DNA of 35,342 bases from NCBI GenBank assembly GCA_016789685.1, contig JAEUQQ010000392.1:1-35342 (forward strand), in the 5' to 3' direction. This DNA is from Acidobacteriota bacterium (GTDB lineage: Bacteria; Acidobacteriota; Vicinamibacteria; Vicinamibacterales; JAFNAJ01). Positions 4,535 to 20,063 of this stretch are shown piece by piece. Position 1 is the stretch's first letter, and each line of letters begins with the position of its first letter. The notes beneath the pieces were generated by a model that ran no database searches, was not told the DNA's origin, and worked only from the letters and a program-made list of their open reading frames with translations. A program made the translations under genes and the position numbers.

Positions 4535-5296
4535 ATGGAGCACAAGACCTCGCTGACCGTCCTGCTCGAGCAGACCGATGCCGTCGAGCACGACCATTTC
4601 TGGTTTCGCGGCTTCCGGGCCTTCACCGACCCACTGCTCGACCGGGCAGCAGCCGGGCGAACGAACCTCACGTTGCTCGACTGCGGCTGCGGCACGGGCC
4701 TCAACATGCAGCGCTTCCAGCGCTACGGTACGGTGTTCGGCTTCGACATCACCCGACTGGGGCTCGAGCTGGCGCACCAGCGCAAGCAACAGCGCGTTGC
4801 CCAGGGGTCGACCACGCAGATCCCGTTTGCAGGCGAGCGCTTCGACATCCTGACGTCGTTCGACGTGCTCGTGTGCCTCGACGAAGAGCAGGAAGCCGAA
4901 GCGTTTGCCGAGTTCTTCCGCGTGCTGAAGCCGGGAGGGCACGTGCTGATCAACGTCGCGGCGCTCGAGATTCTGCGTGGCGCCCATTCGGCGGTCGCCA
5001 TGGAAGTACGGCGCTACCGGCGACGCATGCTCCGGCACGGCCTCGAGCGCGCGGGGTTCCGGATCGAACGGCTGACCTACACAAACGCGTCGCTGTTCCC
5101 GATCATGCTGGCGGTGCGGCTGGCCCAGCGGCTCGGCGGCCTGCCCTCGGCCGAAGAGGCGGGTAACAACCTTGCCATCCCCGCCGCCCCGGTCAACGCC
5201 GCGTTCGGCGCCGCCCTGGCCCTCGAAAGCCGGATCCTCCGCCTCATCGACATGCCCATCGGCAGCTCCGTCCTCTGCCTCGCCCGCAAACCCTGA
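4535..5296 (+). CDS. Class I SAM-dependent methyltransferase
   Basis: This 253-residue protein has a methyltransferase type 11/12 core. Motif I is LLDCGCGTGLNMQRF near residues 47-61 with D49 and the GxGxG-like glycines that bind S-adenosylmethionine. Acidic loop FGFDIT follows, then FDILTSFDVLVCLDE (motif for post I region) and the VLKPGGHVLINV strand. A pair of aromatic residues in HDHFWFRGF at the N-terminus is typical of a large environmental subfamily whose substrates are unknown, often linked to polysaccharide or lipid modification. The stop codon TGA is the first of two tandem TGAATTGGGG units that open the downstream repeat island, so the very end of the protein abuts the repeat. The substrate cannot be assigned. 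Confidence 0.85.
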   Translation: MEHKTSLTVLLEQTDAVEHDHFWFRGFRAFTDPLLDRAAAGRTNLTLLDCGCGTGLNMQRFQRYGTVFGFDITRLGLELAHQRKQQRVAQGSTTQIPFAGERFDILTSFDVLVCLDEEQEAEAFAEFFRVLKPGGHVLINVAALEILRGAHSAVAMEVRRYRRRMLRHGLERAGFRIERLTYTNASLFPIMLAVRLAQRLGGLPSAEEAGNNLAIPAAPVNAAFGAALALESRILRLIDMPIGSSVLCLARKP

Positions 5297-5577
5297 ATTG
5301 GGGTGAATTGGGGTCAGACCCTCATCATCCGCAGGAGTCGCGCAGACACCTGCCGGTTCCTCACGACGACGCTGCCCACCGGGCCCGACCGCGGCGCCCG
5401 CCGGAGTCGGTGCCAGTCCAACAGGTTACGCGCGCGCACGACATTGGCACGACCGCGCCGACGAGCCCAGAAATGCCGTCGGCCCACTGCGGCGTCACGG
5501 CATCGACCGCCACCTGCCGTTGGCGGATTAGGGCACTTGTGACCCGAATTCCCGCCAATTCGGGTCAGACCCCAATT
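5294..5577. repeat. GGGGTCAGACC inverted-repeat island (REP-like)
   Basis: The region between the convergent methyltransferase and ABC genes is bounded by inverted copies: AATTGGGGTCAGACC at 5306-5320 and GGTCAGACCCCAATT at 5563-5577, with one mismatch when paired. TGAATTGGGG is repeated in tandem at 5294-5313. A second perfect inverted repeat, TGACCCGAATT / AATTCGGGTCA with a six-base loop, lies at 5540-5567. The roughly 220 bases inside have no protein I recognise in any frame. The motif resembles repetitive extragenic palindromes that are moved by REP-associated tyrosine transposases; that origin is inference. The island supplies the stop codon of the ABC gene at 5565-5567. Confidence 0.7.
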
Positions 5578-7361
5578 CGCGGTTCTTGGTCGCGGTACTG
5601 CAGTTGGTAGAGGCGGTGGTAGATGCCGCGCTGGGCGAGCAGTTCCTGGTGGGTGCCCTGCTCGCGCAGTTCGCCGCGGTGCATGACGAGGATGCGGTCC
5701 ATGTCCTGGATCGTCGACAGGCGGTGGGCGATGGCGATGGTGGTGCGACCGGCCATCAACGTCCGCAGCGCGTCGCGGATGAGCAACTCTGTCTCGGTGT
5801 CGACGCTCGAGGTCGCCTCGTCCAGCACCAGCACCCCCGGGTCGTGCGCCAGCGCCCGGGCGAACGACAGCAGCTGCTTCTGCCCCACTGACAGTGTCGC
5901 CCCGCGCTCGGCCACGGGCGTCTGGTAGCCGTCGGGCATCCGCGCGATGAACGCGTCGGCGTGCACCGCCTCGGCGGCGCGGCGCACCACGTCGTCGTCG
6001 AGGTGCGCACTGCCGAGCCGGATGTTCGCCGCCACCGTGCCCGAGAAGAGATGCACGTCCTGCAGCACGAGCCCGAAACGGCGGCGCAGTTCCTGGAGCG
6101 GCCAATCGCGCACGTCGATGCCGTCCACCAGGATCCGCCCCTGCTGCACGTCGTAGAACCGCAACACCAGGTTGATGACCGTCGTCTTGCCGGCGCCGGT
6201 CGCGCCCACCACACCCACGCGCTGCCCCGGCTGCACCTCGAACGACACGTCGCGCAGCACCCACGCCTCGTCGCGATACGCGAACCACACGTGCTCGAAG
6301 ACGATGTGCCCGCGCGCCGAGCCGTCGGCCACCGGCCGCACGACCGGCACCGCCGGGCTGCTGATGCTGATCGGCGTGTCGAGCAGGCCGAAGATCCGCT
6401 CAGACGACGCCATCGCCGACTGGAGCACGTTGAACTTCTCGGACATGTCGGAGATGGGCCTGAAAAAGCGCTGCGCGTACTGGATGAAGGCCACCATCGC
6501 CCCCAGCGTGAGCGTGCCCTCGCCGACCCAGCCGCCCCCCATGAAGATGATCATCGCCGTCGCCAGCGCCGACACGAACTCGATGGCCGGATAGAACACG
6601 GCGTAGTAGAAGATGCCGTCGATGTTCACGTCGCGGTGCGCGGCGTTGATGCCGCCGAATGTCGCGAAGTTGCGCGACTCGCGCCCGAACACCTGCACGG
6701 TCGACATCCCGGTGACGTTCTCCTGCAGGAAGGCATTGATGCGCGCGATCCACGTTCGCACCTGCCGGTAGGATTCCCGCACGCGCCGCCGGAACCACTG
6801 CGTGATCACGACGATTACCGGCAGCACCGAGAACGTCAGCAGCGCGAGCCGCCAGTCCATCGTCGTCAGCACGACCATGATGCCCACGAGCGTGAACACG
6901 TCGCCGAAGATCGCGACGACGCCCGACGAGAACATCTCGTTGAGCACGTCGACGTCGGTCGTCACGCGTGTCATGAGCCGTCCGACGGGCGTCCGGTCGT
7001 AGTGCGCGAGGTCGATGCGCTGCAGGTGGGTGGCGACCTCCATGCGCACGTCGCGCATGATGCGCTGCCCCGTCATCTGCATCAGCCACGTCTGGACGTA
7101 CTCGAGCGTGAACGACGCGACGAGGACACCCAGGAAGGCCAGCGCGAGCGTATTGAGCCCCGCCAGGTCGCCGGTCGCGATGTAGCGGTCGATGGCGAGC
7201 TTCGTGATCCACGGCTGTGCGAGCTGCAGCACCGACGCCGAGACGATGGCGAGCAGCGCGAGCAGCGCGTGGTGCCAGTACGGCCACAGGTACTGCAGCA
7301 GGCGCCGCATCAGGCGGCTGTCGTAGGCCCGGCCGAGGGCTTCTTCGTCGTGCGCCGCCAT
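5565..7361 (-). CDS. ABC exporter half-transporter, consensus ATP site subunit
   Basis: This is a 598-residue fused permease-ATPase of the MdlB/MsbA-like type. The N-terminal two thirds hold six membrane helices starting at LLQYLWPYWHHALLALLAIV. The nucleotide-binding domain has Walker A GATGAGKTT near residue 386, Q-loop VLQDVHLFSG, a signature written LSVGQ instead of LSGGQ near residue 488, Walker B VLVLDEATSSVD with the catalytic Glu near residue 511, and switch His in IAHRLST. It lies 12 bp behind the 7374-9128 gene, with which it should form a heterodimer. The last codons (RIGV) and TGA come from the REP-like repeat, so the native tail has probably been replaced. Substrate unknown: lipid, peptide or drug. 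Confidence 0.93.
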   Translation of the reverse strand: MAAHDEEALGRAYDSRLMRRLLQYLWPYWHHALLALLAIVSASVLQLAQPWITKLAIDRYIATGDLAGLNTLALAFLGVLVASFTLEYVQTWLMQMTGQRIMRDVRMEVATHLQRIDLAHYDRTPVGRLMTRVTTDVDVLNEMFSSGVVAIFGDVFTLVGIMVVLTTMDWRLALLTFSVLPVIVVITQWFRRRVRESYRQVRTWIARINAFLQENVTGMSTVQVFGRESRNFATFGGINAAHRDVNIDGIFYYAVFYPAIEFVSALATAMIIFMGGGWVGEGTLTLGAMVAFIQYAQRFFRPISDMSEKFNVLQSAMASSERIFGLLDTPISISSPAVPVVRPVADGSARGHIVFEHVWFAYRDEAWVLRDVSFEVQPGQRVGVVGATGAGKTTVINLVLRFYDVQQGRILVDGIDVRDWPLQELRRRFGLVLQDVHLFSGTVAANIRLGSAHLDDDVVRRAAEAVHADAFIARMPDGYQTPVAERGATLSVGQKQLLSFARALAHDPGVLVLDEATSSVDTETELLIRDALRTLMAGRTTIAIAHRLSTIQDMDRILVMHRGELREQGTHQELLAQRGIYHRLYQLQYRDQEPRIGV

Positions 7362-14554: not shown

Positions 14555-16207
14555 ATGCGCGCCGTGCGCGCCCGGACGATCGAAGTGGCCAGTGTGTGCG
14601 CCGTGGCCATCGGGTTGTCGGTCGTGATGACGTGGCCGCTCGCCGCCGGCCTCGGCACCCTCGGACGGACCAATACCGGCGACGGGCTGTTCTCGATCTG
14701 GTGCGTCGCGTGGGTCGCGCGGGCAATTGCCACCGACCCCTTCAACCTCTTCGACGCCAACATCTTCTTCCCGCACAAGGCGACGCTCGCCTACTCCGAG
14801 GCCAACTTCTTCCCGGGCCTGCTGGCGGTGCCGGCGTGGCTGGCCACCGAGAATCCCTACTTCGCCCACAACGTGGTCGTGCTGATCGCCTTCGCGCTGT
14901 CGGTCGCGGGCGGCTATGTGCTGGCCAGGTACCTGACGGGAAGCCGGCTCGCGGCGTTCAGCGCGGGCATCGCGTTCGCGTTCTGCCCGTTCGTCTTCGC
15001 GCGCACGGCGCACATGCAGCTCCTGATGTCGGCCGGACTCCCCTGGACGATGTGGGCGTTCCACCGCTTCGTGGACGCGCCGTCGGTCGGACGCTCGCTC
15101 ACGCTGGGGCTGGTGCTGACGCTGCAGGCGCTGTCGTGCGCCTACTACGGCGTGTTCGTCGCGATGCTGGTCGGGCTCGGCACGTTCTGGTTCGCAATCA
15201 CCCGCGGCTGGTGGCGTGCGCCGCGCTACTGGGCGCTGGTCGCGCTGGCCGCCGTCGTAAGTCTCGCCCTGGTCTTCCCGTTCTTCAAGCCGTTCCTCGA
15301 TGTCCAGACCGAGCTCGGGTTCTCGCGGTCGCTCGAGGACGCGTCGATGTACTCGGCCGACTGGCGCGCGTGGGTCGTGTCGGCGGCCTGGGCCCACCGC
15401 TGGCTGCTCCCGATGCTGGGCACGTGGAACGAGGTGCTGTTCCCCGGCGCCATCGCGCTGGTGCTCGGCGCCTACGGCCTCTGGCGCGTCACGCGGCGCG
15501 GCGACGAAGGCGGCGGGGCGCGTGACATCGCGGGCTACTACCTGTTTGTCGCGATCGTGGCGTTCTGGGCGTCGTTCGGCCCGGCGCTCGGGCTCTACAC
15601 GGTGCTGTTCAAGACCATCCCGGTGTTCTCGTTCCTGCGGGCGCCCGCGCGGTTCGGCATCCTCGTCCTGCTCGCGCTGGTCGTGGGCATGGCATTCGCC
15701 ATCGCGCGCCTGTCGCGGTCGACATTCGGGTGGCGCCGCACGCTGCTGCGTGCCACGCCCGTGCTGCTGGTGGCCGAACTCGCGACGTTCCCGATCAGCC
15801 TGCGGACGGCCGCACCGGTCAACCCCGCGTACCGCATGCTCGCCAACCTGCCGGCGGGCGTCGTGGTCGAGTTCCCGTTCTTCTACCGGCGCACCGACTT
15901 CCCGCGGCACGCCGAGTACATGGTCAACAGCACGTACCACTGGCGGCCGATGGTCAACGGCTACAGTGACCACATCCCGCAGGACTTCCGCGACATGGTG
16001 ATCCCGCTCTCGTCGTTTCCGACGCGCGAGAGCTTCGCCATCCTCGAGCAGCGGCGGGCGCGCTATGCCGTGTTCACGCTCAACGGGTACGACCGCCGCA
16101 GCCGCGAGAAGCTGCTCGACCGGATCGAGCAGTACCGCGAGTATCTCCACCCGCTGAGTCGCGAGAACGACGTGTGGCTGTTCGAAATCGTGGCCTGGCC
16201 GCGCTAG
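14555..16207 (+). CDS. Polytopic membrane protein (GT-C/YfhO-like), first tandem copy
   Basis: This 550-residue protein has ten or more hydrophobic helices and a C-terminal periplasmic part of about 110 residues. Near residue 44-75 it has NTGDGLFSIWCVAW followed by FNLFDANIFFPHKATLAYSE, an acidic first loop as in GT-C-fold enzymes. A central AFCPFVFARTAHMQLL and FLRAPARFGI precede the soluble end, which includes VVVEFPFF and MVNGYSDHIPQDF. The same landmarks occur in the next gene, so the two are tandem paralogues. It may transfer a sugar from a polyprenyl carrier to an envelope acceptor; function is inferred from topology only. The ATG at 14555 lies 16 bp from the start of the divergent gene, and no Shine-Dalgarno is visible. 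Confidence 0.75.
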   Translation: MRAVRARTIEVASVCAVAIGLSVVMTWPLAAGLGTLGRTNTGDGLFSIWCVAWVARAIATDPFNLFDANIFFPHKATLAYSEANFFPGLLAVPAWLATENPYFAHNVVVLIAFALSVAGGYVLARYLTGSRLAAFSAGIAFAFCPFVFARTAHMQLLMSAGLPWTMWAFHRFVDAPSVGRSLTLGLVLTLQALSCAYYGVFVAMLVGLGTFWFAITRGWWRAPRYWALVALAAVVSLALVFPFFKPFLDVQTELGFSRSLEDASMYSADWRAWVVSAAWAHRWLLPMLGTWNEVLFPGAIALVLGAYGLWRVTRRGDEGGGARDIAGYYLFVAIVAFWASFGPALGLYTVLFKTIPVFSFLRAPARFGILVLLALVVGMAFAIARLSRSTFGWRRTLLRATPVLLVAELATFPISLRTAAPVNPAYRMLANLPAGVVVEFPFFYRRTDFPRHAEYMVNSTYHWRPMVNGYSDHIPQDFRDMVIPLSSFPTRESFAILEQRRARYAVFTLNGYDRRSREKLLDRIEQYREYLHPLSRENDVWLFEIVAWPR

Positions 16208-17781
16208 GACTGTTCGCGGCCCTCGCGGTCGCGCACACGTGGCCGCTGGCGCTCGCGCCCGCGACCACCGGCCGCGTCGATCACGCCGACACGCTGCTCA
16301 ACGCGTGGATCCTGGCGTGGGTGCCGCACGCCCTGCTCACGCAGCCGCTGCACCTGTTCGACGCCAACATCTTCTTCCCGTCACGCGACGCGCTGGCGTT
16401 CTCTGAGCACCTGTTCGTGCCGGCGATGATCGGCGCGCCGCTGACGTGGGCGGGCGCGTCGCCGCTGCTGGTGCACAACCTCGTCCTGCTCCTGGGGATG
16501 TCGCTCACCGGCTGGGCGTGGTGTGTGCTCGGGTGGCGATGGACGCGCGACCCGTTCGCGGCCGTCTTCGTGGGCACGGTGGCGGCGTTCAACGCGCACA
16601 CGCTGACGCGGTTGCCGCACGTGCAGGCGATGCACGTCGAGTTCCTGCCGCTTGCGCTCCTCGCGCTCGACCGGCTCATCGCGAACGGGCCGTGCGTGCG
16701 GCGCACCATGACGATGGCGCTCGCGTTCTCGGCACAGGCGCTCTGCTCGGGGTACCTGCTGGTGCTGTCGGCGTTGTCGCTGACCGTCGTCGCCCTCGTC
16801 CGGGTCCGCGAGTGGATGGCGACGGCCCATCGATGGCGCGTCATCGGCGCCGCGAGTGGCGCCGGCGCGCTCAGCATCCTCCTGCTCCTGCCCTTCCTCG
16901 TGCCCTACCTGCGGGTGCAGCGGGTCGAGGGCATGACGCGGTCGCTCGACGAGGTCGCGCTGTATTCGGCGCATCCGCTCGACTACCTGACGACGACCGC
17001 CAGGATGCACTTCGACGCGTGGAGCCACACGTTCTACCGATCGACCGACGCGCTGTTTCCCGGCGTCGCGGTCCTGGTACTGGTGGCGTGGGCACTGGCC
17101 TCGCGGGTGGCCTGGCGCGACCTGCGCGCCCGCGCGATGCTGGCGGTGGCCGTAGTGGCGTTGGTGGCCTCGTTCGGCCCCCGGGTGCCGGGCTACGCCG
17201 TCGCGTGGGAGTGGATGCCGCTGCTGCAGGGCATCAGGGGCGCGGCCCGCTTCGGCTACCTGGTTACGCTCGGGCTGGGCGTCGTGGCGGGCATAGGCCT
17301 CGCGCATGCGCGCCGTCTGGCGCCGCGCCGTGCGGCGCTCGCCCTGGGGCTCGGTGCCGTCGTCCTGGCGAACGCCGACGCGTGGCGGGCGCCGCTGGCG
17401 TTCGAGCGCTTCGACGGCATCCCGGCCATCTACGATCTGCTCGCCGCGGAACCTGCCGCCGTCGTCGTCGAGTTGCCGTTCCCCGAGCCCGAGCGCGTCG
17501 ATCGCAATGCGCGCGCCGTGCTCGCGTCGACGCGGCACTGGGGACGGATGCTGAACGGCTACAGCGGGTTCACGCCATCCAGCTACGTGGAGCATGCGCG
17601 TGCCCTGCGGGGATTCCCCGACGAGCGCGCATGGACGCTGCTGCGCGCCCGCGGCGTCACACACCTGGTGGTGCACGACACGGCCTACGACGCCGCCGTC
17701 ATTGACGGCCTGTTGCACGACCACCGCCTCCGCCTCGTCGCGCGCACCCCCCGCCTGCTCCTCCTCCGCCTCACCGACTGA
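16174..17781 (+). CDS. Polytopic membrane protein (GT-C/YfhO-like), second tandem copy
   Basis: This 535-residue protein is a paralogue of the preceding gene. Shared landmarks in the same order are AHTWPLALAP near the start, HADTLLNAWILAW, LFDANIFFPSRDALAFSEHLF (in pieces), AFNAHTLTRLPHVQAMHVEFLPL, IRGAARFGYL, VVVELPFPEP and MLNGYSGFTPSSY. It has about ten membrane helices and a short periplasmic end. It starts at a GTG that overlaps the previous gene by 34 bp in a different frame, so the pair should be translated together. The shared landmarks suggest duplication followed by divergence, as identity outside these blocks is low by eye. The substrate is unknown. The 108-bp palindrome begins six bases after its stop codon. 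Confidence 0.75.
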   Translation: MAVRNRGLAALGLFAALAVAHTWPLALAPATTGRVDHADTLLNAWILAWVPHALLTQPLHLFDANIFFPSRDALAFSEHLFVPAMIGAPLTWAGASPLLVHNLVLLLGMSLTGWAWCVLGWRWTRDPFAAVFVGTVAAFNAHTLTRLPHVQAMHVEFLPLALLALDRLIANGPCVRRTMTMALAFSAQALCSGYLLVLSALSLTVVALVRVREWMATAHRWRVIGAASGAGALSILLLLPFLVPYLRVQRVEGMTRSLDEVALYSAHPLDYLTTTARMHFDAWSHTFYRSTDALFPGVAVLVLVAWALASRVAWRDLRARAMLAVAVVALVASFGPRVPGYAVAWEWMPLLQGIRGAARFGYLVTLGLGVVAGIGLAHARRLAPRRAALALGLGAVVLANADAWRAPLAFERFDGIPAIYDLLAAEPAAVVVELPFPEPERVDRNARAVLASTRHWGRMLNGYSGFTPSSYVEHARALRGFPDERAWTLLRARGVTHLVVHDTAYDAAVIDGLLHDHRLRLVARTPRLLLLRLTD

Positions 17782-17787
17782 CGCGGC

Positions 17788-17895
17788 GGGGTCACGTCTT
17801 TCATTGCAGCATTTCTCAAGATCTGACCCCGCTTCTGCCTGCCGGTGGGTGTGGGGACAGGTCTTGAGAAATGCTGCAATGAAAGATGTGACCCC
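17788..17895. repeat. 108-bp near-perfect palindrome (REPIN/MITE-like)
   Basis: Left arm 17788-17830 and right arm 17853-17895 are 43 bases each and pair with three mismatches around a 22-base centre; the outer 34 bases differ at one position only. Each arm begins or ends with GGGGTCA/TGACCCC, so the element looks like two inverted copies of one unit. The arms are much less GC-rich than the flanking genes. It carries no gene. The GGGGTCA ends resemble those of the island at 5294-5577. It sits 35 bp before the S9 peptidase start and could act as a terminator for the membrane genes. Confidence 0.85.
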
Positions 17896-17930
17896 GAGTA
17901 GGATGGGCGTCACTTCTGGAGGTCTCGCCC

Positions 17931-20063
17931 ATGGTTCAGTCTGCTCTGCGGCGCGCGCGTGCGTGTGCGCTCGTCCTCGTTGCGTTCGTGACGCTGCTCG
18001 GCGCCTCGCCGACACACGCGGCGCGGCCGATTGCCGAGACCGACCTGTTCGACTTCGTCTGGATTGCCGACCCGCAGATCTCGCCCGACGGCAGCCGCGT
18101 CGTGTTCGTCCGCGTCACGGTCAACGACAAGAAGGATGGGTACGACACATCGTTGTGGGTGGTCGAGACAAGCGGCGCCTCGGCGCCCAGGCGCCTCACG
18201 TCGGGCACCCGTGACACGGCGCCCAGGTGGTCTCCCGACAGCGCATGGCTGGCCTTCGTCAGGCCCGTCGACGCCAGGGGGCGCACGTCGCCCCAGATCC
18301 ACCTCCTGTCAATGGCCGGCGGCGAGGCGACCGCCATCACCGACCTCCCCCGCGGCGCCGGCGCTGCCGTGTGGGCGCCTGACGGCAGGACCATCGCCTT
18401 TCTCTCGACCACGAAGCCCGAAGACCTGACCGAGAAGAAAGACCCAGCCGAGCGCGTCAGCGACGTCCGCGTCATCACGCGCGCCGTCTACCGCGACAAC
18501 GGGGGCGGCTACCGCGACTACACGCGGGCCAGCAAAATCTGGACGGTGCCGGTACCGGCCGGCGCGCCCGCCGTCCAGAAGGCCACCCGCCTCACGTCTG
18601 GTGACTTCGGGGAATCTGGTGTGACGTGGACGCGCGATTCGCAGCGCATCCTCTTCACGACGACGCTCGACAAGGAGCCGTACTACAAGCCCCAGGACAG
18701 CGACCTCTACGCAATCCCCGCCGGTGGAGGCACGCCGGCGCTCGTGGCGTCGATCGATGGCGGCATCGGCAACGTGGTCGTCAGCCCGGAGGGGGGCCGC
18801 GTGGCGTTCATCGCGAGCCCAAGCACGCCCGTGCGGTCGTACACGCAACCCGATCTCTGGGTCGCGCCCCTCGACGGGTCGAGCGCTCCGAGGAACCTGA
18901 CGACGGCGTACGACTTCGACATGGGCACGGGCCTTGCCGGCGATCAGGGGGCTCCGCGTGGTGGGCGCGCGGCGGCGCCGACCTGGACGCCGGACGGCCG
19001 CGCCATCATCTACGGCACCGAGCGCGAGGGCCGCGTGAACCTGGTGCGCGTCGATGCCGCCAGCGGCGCCGTCACCAGCGTGACGACGGGCGACCACGAG
19101 GTGATGTCATGGACGGCCGACGCGAAGGTCACGCAGTTCGTGACGCTCATCTCGACACCGACGAGCATCGGCGACCTGTTCCTGGTGCCCGCGACCGGCG
19201 GCACGCCGAAGCGCCTGACCGACGTGAACAAGGACCTCTTCGCGCAGATCACGCTGACGGCACCCGACGACCTGTGGGTCACGAGCTTCGACGGCCGGAA
19301 GGTCCACACGCTGGTTCAGCGGCCTCCCAACTTCGACGCGTCAAAGAAGTATCCCGTGATTCTCAACATCCACGGCGGCCCGCACTCGGCCTACGGCTAC
19401 ACGTTCTTCCACGAGATGCAGTGGATGGCCGCGCAGGGCTACGTGGTCGTATACCCCAACCCGCGTGGCAGCACGTCGTATGGGCAGGACTTCGGCAACA
19501 TCATCCAGCACAAGTATCCCGGTGACGACGGCAAGGACCTGCTGGCCGCGGTCGACGCGGTGATCACACGGGGCTGGGGTGATCCCGATCGGCTCGGCGT
19601 CACGGGGGGAAGCGGCGGCGGCGTCCTCACCAACTACCTGGTCACGCAGACCAACCGCTTCAAGGCCGCGGTGTCGCAGCGGTCGATCAGCGACTGGGAG
19701 GCTTTCTGGTTCACGGCCGATTTCGTGCTGTTCCAGCCGTCCTGGTTCAAGGCCGCACCGTGGGAAGACCCGAAGGACTTCGCCGAGCGGTCAGCGGTGA
19801 CGCACATCGCGAAGATCACGACGCCGATCATGTTCGTCGAAGGCGCCGACGACCTCCGCACGCCCCCGTCAGCCGGCGGCGAGCAGCTCTTCCGCGGCCT
19901 CAAGTACCTGAAACGCCCCACGGTGATGGTGCAGTTCCCCGGGGAATCGCACGAACTGTCGCGTTCCGGGCATCCCTGGCATCGTGTCGAACGCCTCCGC
20001 CACATCGTCGGCTGGATGGACAAGTGGATTCTCGGCAAGGACGTGAAGGGCTACGAGCCCTAG
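17931..20063 (+). CDS. Secreted S9 family prolyl oligopeptidase-like peptidase
   Basis: This 710-residue protein has a signal peptide (residues about 1-30, ending in SPTHA), a beta-propeller of WD40/TolB-like repeats (ISPDGSRVVFVRV, WSPDSAWLAFV, WAPDGRTIAFLS, WTPDGRAIIYG) to about residue 440, and a C-terminal alpha/beta hydrolase domain. The domain has LNIHGGPHSAYG as oxyanion region, nucleophile Ser561 in GGSGGG, Asp641 in GADDLRTP and His674 in GESHELSR. Family S9C-type acylaminoacyl or dipeptidyl peptidases have this plan and length. It should cut short peptides in the periplasm. GGAGG lies eight bases before the ATG. A TAGGAT box at 17899-17904, just after the palindrome, could be its -10. 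The M20 enzyme gene follows. Confidence 0.93.
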   Translation: MVQSALRRARACALVLVAFVTLLGASPTHAARPIAETDLFDFVWIADPQISPDGSRVVFVRVTVNDKKDGYDTSLWVVETSGASAPRRLTSGTRDTAPRWSPDSAWLAFVRPVDARGRTSPQIHLLSMAGGEATAITDLPRGAGAAVWAPDGRTIAFLSTTKPEDLTEKKDPAERVSDVRVITRAVYRDNGGGYRDYTRASKIWTVPVPAGAPAVQKATRLTSGDFGESGVTWTRDSQRILFTTTLDKEPYYKPQDSDLYAIPAGGGTPALVASIDGGIGNVVVSPEGGRVAFIASPSTPVRSYTQPDLWVAPLDGSSAPRNLTTAYDFDMGTGLAGDQGAPRGGRAAAPTWTPDGRAIIYGTEREGRVNLVRVDAASGAVTSVTTGDHEVMSWTADAKVTQFVTLISTPTSIGDLFLVPATGGTPKRLTDVNKDLFAQITLTAPDDLWVTSFDGRKVHTLVQRPPNFDASKKYPVILNIHGGPHSAYGYTFFHEMQWMAAQGYVVVYPNPRGSTSYGQDFGNIIQHKYPGDDGKDLLAAVDAVITRGWGDPDRLGVTGGSGGGVLTNYLVTQTNRFKAAVSQRSISDWEAFWFTADFVLFQPSWFKAAPWEDPKDFAERSAVTHIAKITTPIMFVEGADDLRTPPSAGGEQLFRGLKYLKRPTVMVQFPGESHELSRSGHPWHRVERLRHIVGWMDKWILGKDVKGYEP

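Follow-up and report, generated by a model that had tools for sequence, protein, structure and literature searches.

A multi-copy, REPIN-like inverted repeat in an Acidobacteriota genome, best filed with the TIR/TIRYT branch

An inverted pair between two genes

The window examined in the present study, i.e. the whole stretch of 35,342 nucleotides analysed from contig JAEUQQ010000392.1 of an Acidobacteriota bacterium (GCA_016789685.1), contains a near-perfect palindrome in the gap between an open reading frame (ORF) for a multi-pass membrane protein, the product of which has a weak YfhO-like match under the Pfam cut-off, and an ORF for a peptidase (Table 1). The element begins 6 nt after the TGA of the upstream ORF and ends 35 nt before the ATG of the peptidase, which is preceded by a GGAGG ribosome-binding-like site at 17918-17922.

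Table 1 Coordinates of the inverted pair and of the neighbouring ORFs in the window
Feature	Positions	Strand	Description
Whole inverted pair, REPIN-like TIR dimer	17787..17896	.	two 43-44-nt units tail to tail, GGGGTCAC heads outward
Left unit, type L	17788..17830	+	GGGGTCACGTCTTTCATTGCAGCATTTCTCAAGATCTGACCCC
Right unit, type L	17853..17895	-	GGGGTCACATCTTTCATTGCAGCATTTCTCAAGACCTGTCCCC
22-nt centre	17831..17852	.	without counterpart in the other copies listed
Upstream ORF, 535 aa, multi-pass membrane protein	16174..17781	+	stop TGA 17779-17781
Downstream ORF, S9 prolyl oligopeptidase family	17931..20063	+	ATG at 17931

The two arms (17787-17830 and 17853-17896) comprise 44 nt each, are 93% complementary and enclose 22 nt. 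The predicted RNA fold of 17782-17900 has an energy of -94.9 kcal/mol compared with -38.3 ± 3.8 kcal/mol for dinucleotide shuffles (z = -15), none of the 200 shuffles folding as well. GC content is 0.546 in the element versus 0.65-0.75 in the adjoining 108-base bins, and 0.719 in its 500-bp flanks. These figures bear out two statements of an earlier note on this DNA, namely that two inverted arms surround a 22-base centre and that the base composition is unlike that of the surroundings. The note also had both arms running from GGGGTCA to TGACCCC, which holds for the left arm but not for the right, where the inner end is GGGGACA (reverse complement ...TGTCCCC); the full terminal palindrome is present in only one arm of the pair. 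It further envisaged a long hairpin before the S9 peptidase mRNA, and a strong fold does lie ahead of that gene, but the upstream stop codon is the more striking neighbour. No rho-independent terminator or U-tract was found at the element, and Rfam returned only microRNA hairpin models far below their gathering scores, which amounts to a generic long hairpin. No conserved locus for an empty-site comparison was found via the S9 gene, the best same-family matches being only 32-43% identical, and neither an empty site nor an excision event was seen.

Copies, unit types and pair architecture

The host assembly comprises 6.17 Mb in 777 contigs, with a completeness of 92.4% and a contamination of 4.3%. 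Searching it for the arm sequence, as the earlier note had suggested, established that the element is multi-copy: the 15-nt arm end, or head, GGGGTCACRTCTTTC occurs 184 times with at most one mismatch (reversed-pattern control 0), the core GCAGCATTTCTCAAG occurs 71 times with at most two mismatches (reversed control 4), and BLAST of the element returned 85 matches. Since several copies are situated at the ends of contigs (e.g. C295:8-55 and C517:3-17), the copy counts are probably low. All unit and pair statistics rest on 132 distinct heads, out of the 184, that were read with their flanks. These are present as 43-bp singles and as head-out doublets of 86-195 bp with variable spacer length, singles being about as common as paired units. 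As in the definition of a REPIN, the repeated units thus form inverted pairs with a hairpin that are dispersed in the genome. The exact family appears specific to the host lineage as far as searched: a longer head, GGGGTCACRTCTTTCATTGC, is present in 0 of 148 other genomes of the same order, relatives that include no same-genus genome, and the exact pattern GGGGTCACRTCTTTCATTGCAGCATTT has no match in the contig collection searched (genome_contigs).

Two sub-families, GGGGTCACGTCTTTCATTGCAGCATTTTTCAAGACCTGACCCC and GGGGTCACATCTTTCTTCATCACATTTCGCACGCTCTGACCCC, have a common head; 70 type-L units of the first and 40 units of the second were read. The second, sub-family A, is a sister repeat (e.g. 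L058, L067 and L052) that at times adjoins a window-type unit, and it builds pairs of its own as well as mixed pairs. A single unit forms a stem of 12 pairs, interrupted by one C-C mismatch, and a loop of 17 nt, at about -15 kcal/mol. Given the tail variants TGTCCCC and TGGCACC, which disrupt the hairpin inside single units, this hairpin is not strictly kept. Conservation at the inner positions of the unit matches that of the head (94-100% at most positions), the first 15 bases being fixed by the search pattern, so that their conservation is no evidence. Upstream of the GGGG head, G is present at position -3 in 90% of copies regardless of a nearby stop codon, within a preferred C/A-G-G/A/T-C/A over the last four bases. 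GGC is the most common sequence there (50/130), and this preference possibly reflects a foot or guide tetranucleotide.

A total of 32 distinct pairs were recovered, comprising 16 L-R, 5 L-L, 6 A-A and 5 mixed or other combinations, and most window-type pairs are therefore L-R heterodimers. The two types are told apart by the loop, which is GCAGC-ATTT in L and GCAGC-AAAA in R, so that one strand of an L-R pair carries ATTT or TTTT at both of its loops, read in a single direction; the paired arms of L-R pairs carry an interior bubble. R units were in pairs in 16/16 cases compared with 28/67 for L (Fisher p = 9e-6), and R was never seen alone. Heterodimeric pairs as such are already known in REP families (PMC3733652). 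The pair in the window is L-L, a symmetric kind that is rarer than heterodimers among the window-type pairs, and it is for this reason that this copy forms a near-perfect palindrome.

Placement after stop codons

Single units are placed with a marked polarity relative to upstream genes. When open frames of 80 codons or more are counted, 34 of 66 singles have an upstream stop no further than 15 nt from the head, versus 4.2% of random positions, and 10 of 60 have one that close to the tail (head versus tail, Fisher p = 7e-5). Intergenic elements will be near stops in any case, but this does not by itself account for the contrast between the two ends. In Escherichia coli, REPs no more than 15 nt from a stop reportedly stall ribosomes (Liang et al. 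2015, as discussed in PMC12306157), and the likeness to the present family consists in a stable hairpin at that distance from the stop; the two differ in phylum, sequence and unit size. By analogy, copies following a stop could influence the end of the upstream gene's message.

The polarity of the singles, together with the effect published for E. coli REPs, also speaks for an account in which the repeats now serve mainly as 3'-end hairpins that brake translation, stabilise mRNA or act as terminators and are selected after stops, their mobile origin being old. However, the U-tract of a terminator is absent at the window site, and conservation of the inner unit equals that of the head, pointing to recent spread or recognition and not to an old local function. 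Short intergenic gaps alone would, moreover, put inserts near stops. We consider this account possible, if on the whole unlikely.

Relationship to Y1 transposases and known repeat classes

The GGGGTCAC motif at the heads and GGGGTCAG at most tails fit the published inverted-repeat signature of TIRYTs, GGGGWSAS, which has been described for repeats occurring as singles and dimers and found in Acidobacteria (Di Nocera et al. 2013, PMC3733652); most TIRYTs have since been equated with subclass 2.1, with the signature GGGG[AT][CG]A[CG] (PMC6006769). The window family thus has in common with TIR/TIRYT repeats its ends, its mixture of singles and dimers and a host among the Acidobacteria.

A connection to transposases is provided by relatives of the host. 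The other end of the unit, its start when read from inside, is GGGGTCAGRTCTTG, which is frequent in three genomes of the same family (G000, the host, G001 and G002) and in four of the same order (G042, G033, G044 and G051), and absent from most other genomes examined. Counts are 42 in the host, 67 and 52 in the two same-family genomes and 57 in G042. The G042 unit, GGGGTCAGGTCTTGAATTGCCAGTTTTTTCACGACCTGGCACC, is identical to the host family consensus at 33 of 43 positions, end to end and in the same orientation (shuffled maximum 23), including 13 identities in the inner 19 nt (shuffle p about 0.001). At one G042 locus (L129) a Y1 transposase gene is bracketed by four copies, two on each side, with their heads outward. 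The element is accordingly neither unique in its genome nor without kin, related units flanking a RAYT-type gene in a relative. More broadly, GGGGTCAG-type motifs were seen 33 times near Y1 genes of relatives versus 4.5 expected, and motifs of the GGGGTCAGGTCT or GGGGTCAGATCC kind adjoin long enzymes with HTH-like C-termini (L116, L124, L126 and L129), the HTH matches of these C-termini being weak (best E about 1e-4, nearly all under the Pfam cut-offs). On an Anaerolineae contig (L196) the same head lies directly ahead of a 44%-identical transposase. Near a further Y1 gene (L134, G026:C44), about nine GGGGTCAGGTCT-type repeats are present in direct orientation, several of them at 28-bp spacing, an arrangement that is tandem rather than inverted.

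In the host genome, a single Y1 gene was detected (C230; L030, G000:C230:5354-8668). Its match to the REP-associated tyrosine transposase model is below the cut-off, and its ends are AATTGGGGTCAGACCC. A tblastn search of the host genome with the G042 enzyme finds only this gene, and no transposase flanked by the exact window family was found in the host genome (92% complete, 777 contigs). Since the one Y1 gene of the host bears AATTGGGGTCAGACCC ends, the cognate enzyme of the GGGGTCAC family is either absent or not assembled, or another enzyme has taken its place. The REP-associated tyrosine transposase with matching flanks anticipated in the earlier note is therefore represented by a gene with homologous units around it in a relative, whereas the gene in the host is accompanied by different repeats.

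The GGGGWSAS ends and the homology to the flanks of long RAYTs with putatively HTH-like C-termini point to TIR/TIRYT repeats and not to canonical GTAG REPINs; we suggest that it is best filed as REPIN-like within the TIR/TIRYT branch, without a candidate for the cognate enzyme in the host. It resembles TIR/TIRYT repeats insofar as homologous units flank, in inverted orientation, a Y1 transposase gene in G042, and long Y1 enzymes of relatives have C-termini with weak HTH matches. It differs from them in its own sequence (GGGGTCACRTCTTTCATTGCAGC...), which has an exact match in no other genome searched, in a host genome with no cognate TIRYT detected and only a short Y1 enzyme of its own, and in the many pairs that are L-R heterodimers.

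The earlier note had proposed a mobile REPIN or MITE formed by two inverted units, of which the copy number and the inverted units stand and the class has to be amended. With REPINs (Bertels and Rainey 2011, PMC3116915) the family has in common inverted units, a long hairpin, high copy number, intergenic position and a Y1 link; it differs in its 43-nt units, GGGG heads, 17-nt loops, the lack of a GTAG tag and a number of singles close to that of paired units. A reading as a canonical GTAG REPIN served by a RAYT of its own (Bertels groups 2 or 3) would be in keeping with the inverted-pair architecture, copy number and intergenic position, but is very unlikely: base frequencies upstream of the heads indicate that a GTAG or GTGG foot is not the rule at the hairpin, G at -3 being present in 90% of copies, relatives have long enzymes whose C-termini are HTH-like, and the ends conform to GGGGWSAS. 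The canonical GTAG REP was rejected for its absent foot. A MITE with terminal GGGGTCA repeats, belonging to an insertion sequence with a DDE transposase, which the short terminal inverted repeats, many copies and intergenic positions might recall, is the least credible of the alternatives, as homologous units flank a Y1 gene and not a DDE gene, and target duplications of lengths 2-8 show no excess in the 32 doublets or in singles versus shuffled flanks, the result on which this candidate was rejected.

The element is very probably a REP-like mobile repeat of the TIR/TIRYT branch, non-autonomous and consisting of two inverted 43-nt units with GGGGTCAC heads out. This small repeat probably spread with the help of an IS200-type transposase. 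Its homology to transposase-flanking repeats suggests mobilisation by a TIRYT. The units would fold when the DNA is single-stranded, and a Y1 (HuH, IS200/IS605-like) transposase would recognise the GGGGTCA head and the hairpin, cut at the foot of the head and move or copy the pair without target duplication. The persisting copies are intergenic, and very frequently they follow immediately on a stop codon. By analogy, any effect on expression would arise from the transcribed hairpin, which within 15 nt of a terminating ribosome could stall that ribosome or shield the 3' end of the mRNA, in line with what is published for E. coli REPs (cf. PMC12306157). More speculatively, and with a rather small chance of being correct, the family may be of the TIRYT type but without its dedicated transposase, kept as polar post-stop 3'-end hairpins, with the asymmetric L/R pair marking the active strand for single-strand transposition.

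TIR/TIRYT repeats are a known kind of bacterial mobile repeat, and what is new is this family as a member of it; the less expected regularities are the head abutting a stop with polarity in singles, and heterodimers in which the right-hand type is confined to pairs. Much less work has been done on TIRYT-linked repeats than on GTAG REPs. In the host genome, a large and well-preserved family is available in which the L and R unit types are clear and post-stop placement can be quantified, so that both the transposition model (strand asymmetry and head recognition) and a possible role of such repeats in tuning translation at stop codons become testable outside Proteobacteria.

The AATTGGGGTCAGACCC-end repeats are a second repeat family in the host, with 158 hits. 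The Y1/RAYT-like product at C230 is short (193 aa), has NHWH and YVEANARRAG motifs, and its locus sits directly after the stop of a glycosyltransferase-like ORF resembling glycogen synthase. A second repeat element in the window, at 5288-5579 (GAATTGGGGTGAATTGGGGTCAGACCC ... CAATTCGGGTCAGACCCCAATTC), has ends matching those of the C230 element in the same order (95.7% over 47 bp and 97.2% over 36 bp). This element, with a TGA codon overlapping or bordering its left end, is too short for a transposase gene and is probably a non-autonomous derivative.
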